A stretch of DNA of 64,000 nucleotides from contig NZ_CP124750.1 of NCBI RefSeq assembly GCF_029962605.1, positions 1,860,001 through 1,924,000 on the forward strand, read 5' to 3'. This stretch comes from Serratia sarumanii. GTDB taxonomy: Bacteria; Pseudomonadota; Gammaproteobacteria; Enterobacterales; Enterobacteriaceae. Within the stretch, counting starts at the first letter, position 1. The number at the start of each line of letters is the position of its first letter. The notes beneath the pieces are model-generated. The model was not told the origin of the DNA. It did no database searches and was given only the letters and a program-made list of their open reading frames with translations. Below, piece by piece: positions 2,505 to 25,947 of this stretch. The translations under genes and the position numbers were made by a program.

Positions 2505-2893
2505 AGCAGTCCCTTTTCGGTCGTTAGCCGGGAAAACAGGCGGGTCAGGTTGATGTCTTCGCATCAATATTAACTTTTCTGTAACGAATCAAGCGCTATT
2601 TCCGGCCACCTGCCAAATATGCGGATTGCCGCATACTTTTGCCGGACGGCGCGTGGCGGTTGCTTGAAAACTGCGGCGTTTCTCGTCATGCGGAGATTTA
2701 GCATGAAAGTAACGTCATGATAAATAAGTTATTGTTATGGCATTCGTTAATATCATGCCCGCAACGCGTCAGGCCTGACTTTTGTCACTATGCTGATTTC
2801 TTCATTCGCCGCGCCGAAACGCATCAAGCCGTTAAGCCCACATTCGTTCAGGCTAACGCTATTGGTAACATCTCATTAACTCAGGAGACGCCG
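2505..2893. promoter_or_regulatory. Divergent control region of the hydroxyproline locus
   Basis: This 389-bp gap separates the regulator from the epimerase operon and is more AT-rich than the genes. It should hold the promoter of the catabolic operon and the operator of the AraC-type protein. I see a good ribosome site (CAGGAG) for the epimerase at 2882-2887. I could not identify a convincing direct repeat as the regulator's site. Confidence 0.5.
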
Positions 2894-3841: not shown

Positions 3842-4965
3842 TGGGCGCCGAGCGGGGAGCCGATGTCATCGTGGTCGGCGCCGGCATCATCGGCGCCGCC
3901 TGCGCCTGGCGGTTGGCGCGGGAAGGCTATCGCGTCTCGGTGGTGGACGATCGCCGCGCCGGCGCCACCGCCGCCGGCATGGGGCATCTGGTGTGCATGG
4001 ACGATAATCCGGCCGAGCTGGCGTTGAGCGCTTATTCGCTGCGGTTATGGCGTGAAGTGACGGGGCGCATGCCGCAAGCGTGTGCCTGGCGCGGCTGCGG
4101 AACGCTATGGCTGGCGGATAAAGCGGATGAAATGGCCATCGCCGAGCAAAAGCGGGTGCGGCTGGCGGAGCAGGGCGTGGCCGCGGAATTGCTGACGGCG
4201 GAACAGATCGCCGCCATGGAGCCGATGCTGCGGCACGGCCTGGCCGGCGGACTGCGGGTGCCGGGCGACGGCATTCTGTATGCGCCGCTCGCGGCTCGCT
4301 GGCTGTTGGCCGACGGTGGTGCGGCAATCGACGTGGTGCACGGCGAAGCGGCAGCGCTGGAAGAGGGAGCCGTGCGGCTGGCGGACGGCAGACGCCTGGC
4401 CGCGCCGGTGGTGCTCCTGGCGTGCGGCCTTGGGGCCAATGGCCTATTGCCGCAGACTTTGCTGTACGCCAAAAAGGGCCATCTGGCGATCACCGATCGC
4501 TACCCGCTGCGGGTGCGGCATCAACTGGTGGAGTTGGGGTATGGGGCCAGCGCGCATGCCAGCGACGGCACGTCGGTGGCATTCAATGTGCAGGCACGGC
4601 CCACCGGGCAATGGCTGATCGGTTCTTCTCGCCAGTTCGGCGCCGTCGATTCGGTGTTGGACATGCCGCTGTTGGCGGCGATGCTTGCGCGTGCGCAGCA
4701 TTTCTTGCCCGCACTGGCGCAGATGAACATCATTCGCTGCTGGACCGGGCTGCGCGCCGCCTCCGTCGACGGGCTGCCGCTGTTGGGCGCGCATCCACGG
4801 TATTCCTGGCTGTGGCTGGCACTGGGGCACGAGGGATTGGGCGTCACGACCGCCCTCGGCAGCGCTGCGCTGATCGCTGCGCAGATCGGCCGGCAAACGC
4901 CGGAGATTGACGATTCCCCGTATTTGGCGGCGCGGGCGTTTGCCGCCGAGGAGCTGCCTGTATGA
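3841..4965 (+). CDS. FAD-dependent oxidoreductase, D-amino-acid dehydrogenase-like subunit
   Basis: A 374-residue DadA-type flavoprotein. A dinucleotide-binding motif begins at residue 9 (VVGAGIIGAACAWRL), and the C-terminal half has the usual WTGLRAASVDGLPLLG region. It overlaps the epimerase by one base (TGATG) and the next gene by four (ATGA), so translation is probably coupled. With the following 2Fe-2S protein and second flavoprotein it matches the heterotrimeric cis-4-hydroxy-D-proline dehydrogenase (LhpB-type catalytic subunit) known from Pseudomonas. It would make 1-pyrroline-4-hydroxy-2-carboxylate. The substrate is inferred from context. Confidence 0.85.
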   Translation: MGAERGADVIVVGAGIIGAACAWRLAREGYRVSVVDDRRAGATAAGMGHLVCMDDNPAELALSAYSLRLWREVTGRMPQACAWRGCGTLWLADKADEMAIAEQKRVRLAEQGVAAELLTAEQIAAMEPMLRHGLAGGLRVPGDGILYAPLAARWLLADGGAAIDVVHGEAAALEEGAVRLADGRRLAAPVVLLACGLGANGLLPQTLLYAKKGHLAITDRYPLRVRHQLVELGYGASAHASDGTSVAFNVQARPTGQWLIGSSRQFGAVDSVLDMPLLAAMLARAQHFLPALAQMNIIRCWTGLRAASVDGLPLLGAHPRYSWLWLALGHEGLGVTTALGSAALIAAQIGRQTPEIDDSPYLAARAFAAEELPV

Positions 4966-24404: not shown

Positions 24405-25253
24405 ATGATGCCAAACCGCCTCGAGCCGGAACTCGACATTTACCAATACCCGGAGCACCTGCGCGCCTGTCTGGCGCCGTTGCCCAAGGGGCCGGGCGTC
24501 TATCTGTTCCACGGCGAGAGCGAAAGCCTGCCGCTTTACATCGGTAAAAGCGTCAACGTACGCAGCCGGGTGATGGCGCATTTTCGCGCGCAGGACGAGG
24601 CGAAAATGCTGCGCCAAACCCGGCGCATCAGCTTTATCGAGACCGCCGGCGAGTTGGGTGCATTGCTGCTGGAGGCGCAGTTGATCAAGCAGCAACAACC
24701 GTTGTTCAACAAACGCCTGCGGCGCTCGAAACAGCTGTGTGCGCTGCGTCTGCTGGCGGATACGGTGACGATTGCCCACGCCAAAGAGATCGATTTCGCC
24801 GTCACGCCCCACCTCTACGGGCTGTTTGCCAATCGCCATGCCGCGCTGGAAAAACTGCGCGCCATCGCCGACGAGCATCGTTTATGTTATGGCAAGCTGG
24901 GGATCGACAAGCTGCCCGCGGGGCGAGCCTGCTTCCGCTACAGCCTGCGCAAGTGCGCCGGCGCCTGCTGCGGCGTGGAGTCGGCGCAGGAACATGCGCA
25001 GCGGCTCGGTGCGGCGCTTGAACAGCTGCGCATCGCCTGTTGGCCATTCGCCGGGCGCGTGGCGTTGGAAGAACAGGGCGAGACGCTGCGTCAGTACCAT
25101 GTGATTCACAATTGGTTTTATCTGGGCTCGGTCAGCAGCCTGGCGCAGGCGCAGCGGCTGCAGAGTGCGGCCAGCCATTTTGACAGCGATGGCTACAAGA
25201 TTTTGTGCAAGCCGCTCATGGCCGGCGATTATCGGATTATTGAGCTGCCGTAA
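24405..25253 (+). CDS. cho: Cho, UvrC-homologous excision-repair endonuclease
   Basis: 282 residues. It has a GIY-YIG nuclease domain (PGVYLFHGESESLPLYIGKS, residues 27-46) and the cysteine-rich CFRYSLRKCAGACCG region shared with the N-terminal half of UvrC, but lacks the C-terminal incision domain. Cho makes an alternative 3' incision at bulky lesions that UvrC handles poorly, together with UvrA and UvrB. A LexA box sits just upstream. The ATG at 24405 or the next at 24408 could be used; the ribosome site (AGGA) is rather distant. Confidence 0.93.
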   Translation: MMPNRLEPELDIYQYPEHLRACLAPLPKGPGVYLFHGESESLPLYIGKSVNVRSRVMAHFRAQDEAKMLRQTRRISFIETAGELGALLLEAQLIKQQQPLFNKRLRRSKQLCALRLLADTVTIAHAKEIDFAVTPHLYGLFANRHAALEKLRAIADEHRLCYGKLGIDKLPAGRACFRYSLRKCAGACCGVESAQEHAQRLGAALEQLRIACWPFAGRVALEEQGETLRQYHVIHNWFYLGSVSSLAQAQRLQSAASHFDSDGYKILCKPLMAGDYRIIELP

Positions 25254-25365
25254 TGCCATAACGCTGGCGATAGCCTAAGACTTATCTGTAAATTCAGCGC
25301 ATTATGCTAAAAAAGCTTGAGTCCATAATGTTGTTATGGATAATGGCGCCCCGAAGCGAAGGAAC

Positions 25366-25462
25366 GCGCTATTAACTCAGTTGGCAGAGTGATTGGTTTT
25401 ATAATGGCTTGTTTTGGCTTGAAAATTGATAGACGCGGGTTCGAGTCCTGCATAGCGCGCCA
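25366..25462 (+). tRNA. tRNA-like sequence with enlarged anticodon loop (probable pseudo-tRNA)
   Basis: 97 nt folding as a tRNA except at the anticodon. Acceptor GCGCTAT pairs perfectly with ATAGCGC (25366-25372 / 25452-25458), followed by G and encoded CCA. D stem ACTC/GAGT encloses AGTTGGCA. T stem GCGGG/CCTGC encloses TTCGAGT. The anticodon stem ATTGG/TTGAT (25392-25396 / 25426-25430) pairs mostly by wobble and encloses 29 nt instead of seven; TTTT/AAAA could extend it by four pairs. Inside the loop TGGCTTG occurs twice, ten bases apart. I cannot assign an amino acid. It may be a pseudogene or an attachment-site relic, or a structured RNA with another role. Confidence 0.6.
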
Positions 25463-25488
25463 GCTTTCTTCCCTTCATCTCACCGCGC

Positions 25489-25562
25489 TTACCGTAAAGC
25501 GCACCCGGGTTGATTTGCACTATCGGCTCCTCGTTGGGATTTTCGGGTGTGCTTTACCGTAA
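25489..25562. repeat. Imperfect 19-bp inverted repeat, 74 bp overall
   Basis: TTACCGTAAAGCGCACCCG (25489-25507) and CGGGTGTGCTTTACCGTAA (25544-25562) are inverted copies with 17 of 19 matches, separated by 36 bp. There is no T tract, so it is not a plain terminator. It begins 27 bases after the tRNA-like sequence. It could be a long hairpin in RNA, paired protein-binding sites, or the ends of a miniature element. Confidence 0.6.
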
Positions 25563-25647
25563 CCGCTGGCTTTCCTTCCTCTTTCTCTTTCGATCCTTTG
25601 CTAAACTGTAATCAGGCAGGCTTGCTGCCCGGCAACAGGAGGTCGAT

Positions 25648-25947
25648 ATGTCTCACTCCGAGCAACTGCAGGAACTCTTGCACCGCGTCGCCGCCCTCGA
25701 GGCGAGAGAGAAAGCGCTGAGCGCCGCGTCCAACGCTTATCAGGCGATTATCACCACCATGTTGGGCAATATGGAGAAGACCGAACGCGATCGGATCATC
25801 GCGATGATCGATCAGGCCCATGAAATCGCCTACGCCCGCGCCATTCAACGCAGCAACGAACCGCAAAAGCAGAAAATCAAACAGGCCGACGATGTGGCCC
25901 AGCGCATGTTCATGTTTGCGCAAGGCAAGGCCGCCCAACCGCGCTGA
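25648..25947 (+). CDS. IraP-like small protein (possible RssB anti-adaptor)
   Basis: 99 residues, preceded by CAGGAGG. An N-terminal coiled-coil helix is followed by AIITTMLGNMEKTERDRII, which lines up with IVTAMLRNMAQNDQQRLID of E. coli IraP, as do LL...VA..E...K.L residues before it. IraP binds RssB and stops RpoS degradation during phosphate starvation. The similarity is by eye and the C-terminal third differs, so the function is inferred. It is monocistronic with no neighbouring clue. Confidence 0.55.
   Translation: MSHSEQLQELLHRVAALEAREKALSAASNAYQAIITTMLGNMEKTERDRIIAMIDQAHEIAYARAIQRSNEPQKQKIKQADDVAQRMFMFAQGKAAQPR

Follow-up and report, generated by a model that had tools for sequence, protein, structure and literature searches.

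Downstream of cho in Serratia sarumanii lies a sequence with the arms of a tRNA and an anticodon arm too large for one, which raises the question of what such a gene is kept for. The window, i.e. the whole stretch of DNA analysed, comprises 64,000 nt of contig NZ_CP124750.1. Our analysis points to a functional, lineage-specific RNA gene encoding a non-decoding tRNA-like RNA, probably a structured small RNA, that serves secondarily as a phage target. We assign this reading a probability of roughly 0.6. The features of the locus are as follows.

24405..25253, + strand: cho (excinuclease Cho), the upstream neighbour (NF007833, 459.4 bits, cut-off 367)
25317..25344, + strand: putative sigma-70 promoter TTGAGT-16-GATAAT, followed by a GC-rich stretch (consensus scan, 9 of 12 matches)
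25351..25365, + strand: putative short purine-rich 5' leader with a presumed start (pairing with the trailer)
25366..25462, + strand: tRNA-like RNA gene (ARAGORN and Rfam; present in 26 of 30 Serratia genomes)
25392..25430, + strand: extended anticodon arm (pairing over 23 distinct sequences; alignments)
25446..25462, + strand: 17-bp phage attachment core, covering the end of the T loop, the 3' strand of the T arm, the acceptor strand and CCA (found at both prophage ends in Serratia genome G006)
25489..25562, + strand: conserved three-way-junction RNA with a long stem and two small hairpins (consensus fold, shuffles, distribution)
25602..25607, + strand: putative -10 element (GCTAAACT) of the iraP-like gene's own promoter (by eye)
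25648..25947, + strand: gene of an IraP-like protein (99 aa), a neighbour rather than a proven part of the system (PF10796, 26.8 bits, cut-off 23.2)

A tRNA search and a comparison with Rfam, checks of the kind proposed by the initial annotation, both returned a tRNA. ARAGORN called one spanning exactly 25366-25462, and the tRNA family RF00005 matched with 44.6 bits (gathering threshold 29; E = 3.1e-6 for the window), leaving 26 bases of the anticodon arm unaligned. Genome-wide there are 86 RF00005 matches including this one, whose score is the second weakest. The coordinates and anatomy first annotated proved right by sequence. The acceptor stem GCGCTAT/ATAGCGC forms 7 of 7 pairs, the D stem is ACTC/GAGT with GG within the D loop, the T arm is GCGGG-TTCGAGT-CCTGC, the variable region has 4 nt (AGAC), the discriminator is a G at 25459 and CCA is encoded at 25460-25462. 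A 7-bp acceptor, D arm, T arm and CCA, as they define a canonical tRNA, are thus all present. Besides these elements, the RNA shares with canonical elongator tRNAs (RF00005) the D-loop GG and the T-loop bases that serve tertiary contacts in tRNAs. The 97 nt had no folding advantage over shuffled sequences (z = -0.55; 56 of 200 as good), so the case is carried by the tRNA profile and by conservation, not by folding energy. The weakest RF00005 match of the genome (32.5 bits) is a degenerate sequence, tRNA-Lys(TTT)-like by eye and followed by CCA, which lies ~16 kb upstream of the window start (L052, ~266-338; genome C1:1843565-1843637).

Canonical elongator tRNAs have a 7-nt anticodon loop, whereas the Serratia RNA has an extended arm with a U-rich tip. 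For the comparison of copies, 29 loci were picked by similarity to the element, from 26 Serratia genomes and 3 genomes of two related genera. A usable conserved 7-nt anticodon loop was absent from every one of these copies. The enlarged arm is kept in all 29, with a total element length of 95 to 97 nt. It had initially been described as a 29-nt anticodon loop; the enlargement stands, but the open loop does not, and the region is better read as an extended arm. This arm has a 9-bp stem (25392-25400/25422-25430) with an internal loop within, and an inner 3-bp stem (25406, 25408 and 25409 with 25416-25418) closing the U-rich tip (25410-25415). The stem extension suspected from TTTT/AAAA was confirmed: all 23 distinct sequences pair TTTT with AAAA (or GAAA), which gives a stem of 9 bp, and all of them also allow the inner stem GC(U)/(G)GC. 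Three consecutive G-U pairs in the 9-bp stem are invariant across the 23 distinct rows, and 7 of 9 anticodon-stem pairs are unchanged. The anticodons guessed by ARAGORN vary by copy: Tyr(ata), Lys(ttt), unknown (taaa), or no gene at all. Judged by their sequences, the copies seen are all unable to form a 7-nt anticodon loop of the normal kind, and the modelled structure of the arm argues against decoding. A TGGCTTG repeat noted earlier within the loop is complete in 12 of the 29 copies (L009-L020) but broken in 17; it is therefore not a conserved motif and was rejected as a meaningful one. A peptide encoded through the loop was rejected as well, because length changes of 1-2 nt among the copies break any frame.

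The conservation of the RNA is close to complete. Over the first 35 and last 41 bases, which comprise the arms and the 9-bp stem, each of the 29 loci shows at most one change from the window copy in 76 positions. The iraP-like gene, by comparison, has diverged from the window copy at 6 to 56% of its third codon positions across 21 other loci; since the script did not find the gene in 7 loci, including both of the S. rubidaea type, the largest distances fall outside this range. This comparison (0-1 of 76 bases versus up to 56%) rules out a decayed tRNA pseudogene. The preserved arms therefore speak for continued selection, as had been surmised from the single sequence, and the body and remodelled anticodon arm are under purifying selection as strong as would be expected of a working RNA gene. 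The idea that an insertion had split a tRNA and left this gene as its relic was not supported: among the loci picked by similarity to the element, the enlarged arm occurred in 29 of 29 and a normal 76-nt tRNA in none. The proposed check for covariation across relatives was run and, because the arms hardly vary, was uninformative, whereas the conservation of the arms was evident. All 16 acceptor, D and T pairs are invariant. Over the whole structure of the tRNA-like domain, 98.3% of positions were paired, a level that 83 of 500 shuffles (98.1% paired) also reached, and one pair was double-changed (228 of 500 shuffles as high). Comparison of the arms named no parent tRNA, because the best scores tie (His and Lys, 25), followed by Gly (24) and Ala (23). 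The comparison set held 51 distinct ARAGORN sequences from 40 genome stretches and two window pieces, one Gly entry being an artefact that joins two genes.

A full copy is present in 26 of 30 Serratia genomes, once per genome, and the RNA is missing from some relatives. The remaining four Serratia are reduced genomes of 1.5-3.6 Mb. Two other genera carry a copy; in one of these (L136) the loop is identical to that of S. rubidaea. A covariance model (R1), built from 14 of the 29 loci with some ends one or two bases off register, gave strong matches (112-120 bits) in 9 of 392 family genomes, representing 3 of 154 genera. The next-best matches reached 56.7 bits and measured 76 nt, the length of an ordinary tRNA. 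Among the best 10 candidates scored per genome, from which diverged copies could escape, the other 151 genera gave no strong match. A family-wide DNA search with the best 3 candidates per genome scored returned full-length matches from 3 of 154 genera, in 7 of 295 genomes; its other matches were short. The order-wide search, with the best 2 candidates per genome scored, found full-length copies in 2 of 394 genomes, both Serratia, and matches of 29-42 bases in 12 other genomes. At E 1e-5, neither 50,697 phage records nor 72,556 plasmid records nor 5,426 E. coli genomes contained a match, and viral contigs held no exact 23-mer of the RNA. With no copy found in the four reduced Serratia genomes and no strong match in 151 of 154 genera, the RNA is dispensable. 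A pattern scan of named genomes yielded 71 stretches, of which 15 were from Serratia, including S. marcescens, S. bockelmannii, S. ureilytica, S. proteamaculans, S. plymuthica, S. grimesii, S. quinivorans, S. inhibens and S. rubidaea. The others were 38 archaeal stretches and 18 from other bacteria (a few of them tandem-tRNA, long-variable-arm or masked sequences); tRNA introns are known in archaea.

Upstream of the RNA, the consensus scan found one promoter site in the window, with 0.3 expected, and this site ends 21 bases before the tRNA-like RNA. The GGATAAT within this region is kept in 26 of 26 Serratia loci. The same scan gave one site in locus L034, where 1.0 is expected by chance, and no site in locus L041. 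Leader bases 25359-25364 (AAGGAA) can pair with trailer bases 25465-25470. Over 23 rows 91.3% of the cells of this helix are paired (12 of 138 fail) and one pair is double-changed, in two rows, so that the support from the sequences for the putative helix is modest. Pairing between base -1 and the discriminator is possible in all 23 rows (U-G in 14, C-G in 8, U-A in 1); in L040, the discriminator is A and base -1 is U. In tRNA-His and tRNA-Sec, such a pair can move the RNase P cut to -1. Together, the leader-trailer helix and the pair between base -1 and the discriminator suggest, by analogy, that 5' processing may be unusual, with a cut at -1 or a delayed one.

The three-way-junction RNA starts ~26 bases after the CCA. 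Its consensus has 27 predicted pairs, of which 3 are double-changed, with 9 of 540 cells broken; these pairs were predicted from the same alignment on which they were counted. In the right register 92.8% of cells are paired with 3 double changes, compared to 37-44.5% at other registers. The hairpin pattern search matched 21 of 30 loci, and a shorter pattern gave 20 distinct sequences. Pairs swap among G-U, G-C and A-U, which is compatible with an RNA of the + strand only. Shuffled sequences seldom fold as well as the element (z = -3.1; 2 of 200) or as the 220-nt stretch 25351-25570 (z = -2.65; 4 of 200). Of 60 relatives searched, 26 have the three-way-junction RNA, and these are exactly the 26 Serratia genomes with the tRNA-like RNA; it also adjoins the copies in the two other genera. 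It follows directly 3' of the tRNA-like RNA in 25 of 26 Serratia loci, while a prophage lies between them in the other (G006). From this shared occurrence and direct succession, it follows that the two elements travel together, one lysogen excepted. They need not act together, because in that lysogen they are ~38.6 kb apart. In the three-way-junction RNA, a 7-bp stem is capped by the 7-nt loop UUGCACU, and the two together resemble an anticodon arm with GCA. S. rubidaea-type copies have the loop GUGCACU, containing a palindrome that could kiss.

In the G006 lysogen, a gene for a 388-aa tyrosine integrase follows directly after an intact tRNA-like RNA. The last bases of the RNA recur ~38.6 kb away, where they adjoin the three-way-junction RNA and the iraP-like gene, and a phage protein with a Head_binding domain is encoded near the far end of the prophage. 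The sequence common to both ends is the 17-bp core TCCTGCATAGCGCGCCA. The 3' end of the RNA is used as an attachment site, and with the core at both prophage ends and the adjoining integrase the earlier proposal of an integration target was borne out. The same 17 bases occur at a similar junction in viral contig L206, a record that may be a fragment and on which no integrase was found. Other tRNA attachment sites of tyrosine integrases likewise use the 3' end of the gene as the core, present at both prophage ends, but their usual target is a normal tRNA and the Serratia target is not. Conservation extends far beyond the core.

Of the neighbouring genes, cho matched no Pfam family at E 0.001, the IraP-like protein is below the NCBIfam IraP cut-off (27.5 of 78), and ylaC lies downstream of the iraP-like gene. 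The search for the iraP-like gene matched 29 of 198 genomes and 24 of 154 genera, the weakest matches being partial. When R1 was applied to 27 of the 30 loci from this search and to 3 loci of reduced Serratia, it detected the tRNA-like RNA in 4 loci of this set of 30, which belong to Serratia and the two other genera. ARAGORN missed one of the four (L178), and its negatives alone are therefore weak. By eye, GCTAAACT precedes the iraP-like gene in five loci (L183, L185-L188) that lack the tRNA-like RNA and come from three genera, variants of it do so in L182 and L193, and none is visible in the remaining printed loci. The GCTAAACT box presumably resembles sigma-S promoters. As GCTAAACT precedes the iraP-like gene in genera without the RNA, the gene does not require the RNA. 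Three of the four reduced Serratia genomes retain an iraP-like remnant with stops; beside these three remnants neither a tRNA nor, with R1, the tRNA-like RNA was found. In genome G025 the end of cho is recognisable by eye, with just a short stretch between.

From these results we propose the following course. Transcription would be driven by the promoter-like site and begin ~15 nt upstream of the tRNA-like RNA, and the RNA would fold as a stable tRNA chassis that tRNA-maturation enzymes may trim to the encoded CCA. The enlarged arm would act as the effector of a structured small RNA, not of a decoder. Transcription probably runs on into the three-way-junction RNA, which may be a second domain. 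A prophage integrating at the 3' end resupplies that end on insertion and so leaves the RNA intact. A more specific version, which we consider tentative and rather less probable than the general reading, is a natural tRNA scaffold: a two-domain regulatory RNA whose anticodon-less body presents an effector hairpin to a protein or RNA partner, with the three-way-junction domain in the same transcript. The effector hairpin would be the invariant tandem G-U stem with its U-rich tip, and the body would be stable and processed in the manner of a tRNA, perhaps with a -1:73 pair that lengthens the acceptor to 8 bp.

Other explanations were weighed against a non-decoding small RNA. The RNA could be charged by a synthetase at its acceptor end and donate the amino acid off the ribosome, e.g. 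to the cell envelope or in peptide chemistry. Acceptor stem, CCA and T arm are intact in 29 of 29 loci, as a donor would need, and loss of the anticodon would exclude the RNA from translation. No transferase or peptide-ligase gene is found among the three neighbours cho, IraP-like and ylaC, however, and one common identity base is not constant, the discriminator being G in 28 loci and A in L040. We regard such a donor as unlikely, though it is the least unlikely of the alternatives. Somewhat less probable still is a 5' leader of the iraP-like mRNA, in which read-through from the upstream promoter ties both RNA elements to sigma-S control. Strand and order agree with this, no terminator-like site was found between the elements and the gene, and the iraP-like start follows the CCA at a distance of 186 bases in the window and at a similar one in the element-bearing loci L178-L181. 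The gene nevertheless occurs without the tRNA-like RNA in other genera, in some with its own GCTAAACT box, and in G006 it is still open although the prophage separates it from the RNA.

The integrase gene just after the G006 copy, the 17-bp core at both prophage ends and the similar junction in L206 would also be expected if the RNA were kept only as an attachment site for a phage or island. The core is confined to the last 17 bases, yet the whole body, the stem of the anticodon arm and the upstream GGATAAT are conserved; the site is occupied in only 1 of 26 Serratia loci, and a host would presumably gain nothing by preserving a phage site. This makes the explanation improbable. A decoding tRNA from which a 20-22 nt insert is removed by splicing is hardly credible, even though the insert sits within the anticodon loop, the site of tRNA introns, and the body is intact. 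The tRNA-splicing endonuclease family PF01974 was not found in the genome, while the control matched 4 of 14 named genomes, all archaea. Rfam gave no intron family match, the TTTT/AAAA and inner stems are maintained as a hairpin while the insert length varies between species, and ordinary tRNAs are plentiful among the 86 RF00005 matches of the genome. On these sequence grounds splicing is disfavoured.

A structured, non-decoding tRNA-like RNA in Serratia matters because a bacterial tRNA-like gene whose anticodon arm is broken is readily written off as a pseudogene. Near letter-for-letter conservation across a genus and beyond, amid diverging surroundings, makes this one a clean and testable case of a tRNA fold outside translation. 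The general kind is already known; its function in Serratia is what we infer here. In the open-access literature, to which the search was confined, no paper on the element was found among the matches listed. The tRNAOther of Bacillus cereus is a pseudo-tRNA beside a site of foreign-DNA integration that is not expected to decode (PMC3399842). Its proposed role is that of a structural element in a regulatory RNA of larger size; its anticodon is for Trp, and it is reported only from the B. cereus group (PMC3399842). Both RNAs are tRNA-like, not expected to decode and adjoin an integration site, and the conserved + strand three-way-junction RNA predicted downstream fits a larger transcript of the tRNAOther type. 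In contrast to tRNAOther with its Trp anticodon, the Serratia RNA, known here from sequence, lacks a 7-nt loop and has a remodelled 9-bp arm and different surroundings. Of the systems compared, tRNAOther is the closest precedent, with the Serratia RNA at best like that proposal and nothing here suggesting common descent.

The Serratia RNA is also reminiscent of tmRNA in the longer helix that replaces the anticodon arm, since tmRNA has a tRNA-like domain in which a longer helix takes the place of that arm. The third acceptor pair is G-C in the Serratia RNA, not the G-U pair that is the alanine criterion. Neither ARAGORN nor Rfam gave a tmRNA match at the tRNA-like RNA. A tmRNA identity was rejected on this lack of a profile match and because the length changes of 1-2 nt break any tag frame through the loop.

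Other tRNA-like genes with overlong arms came up in the searches. In Ruminococcus (L146:4276-4636 (-), L135:3716-3830 (-) and L111:997-1110 (+)), genes with acceptor, D and T arms have hairpins in place of the anticodon arm and lie upstream of an ORF recognised by eye as alaS. A T-box leader (RF00230) precedes this ORF in L111 and L135. L146 has three such genes in tandem with different bodies, two of which carry the insert motif CTGTCTTG..GAGACAGTAACAGCA and the third a related form. Four Herpetosiphon species (L103:2465-2575 and 2729-2860 (-), L114:3080-3189 (-), L127 and L137) have tRNA-like genes with long replaced anticodon arms and a common motif like CTTCCTC..GAGGTGAT.GT.GG, which may be a small insert carried into several tRNA genes. 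Those looked at, the two genes of L103 and that of L114, lie upstream of an ORF. Further overlong anticodon arms were seen at L117:3701-3830 and 4005-4119 (-), L152:3172-3277 (-), L138:241-352 (-) and L097:6960-7060 (-), the hosts being gammaproteobacterial and alphaproteobacterial MAGs, Capnocytophaga and Epilithonimonas. In IMG/VR, 27 viral stretches (L207-L233) match the pattern of a tRNA with an overlong middle; many of them can adopt the acceptor, D and T arms of a tRNA, and a few are artefacts of tandem tRNAs.
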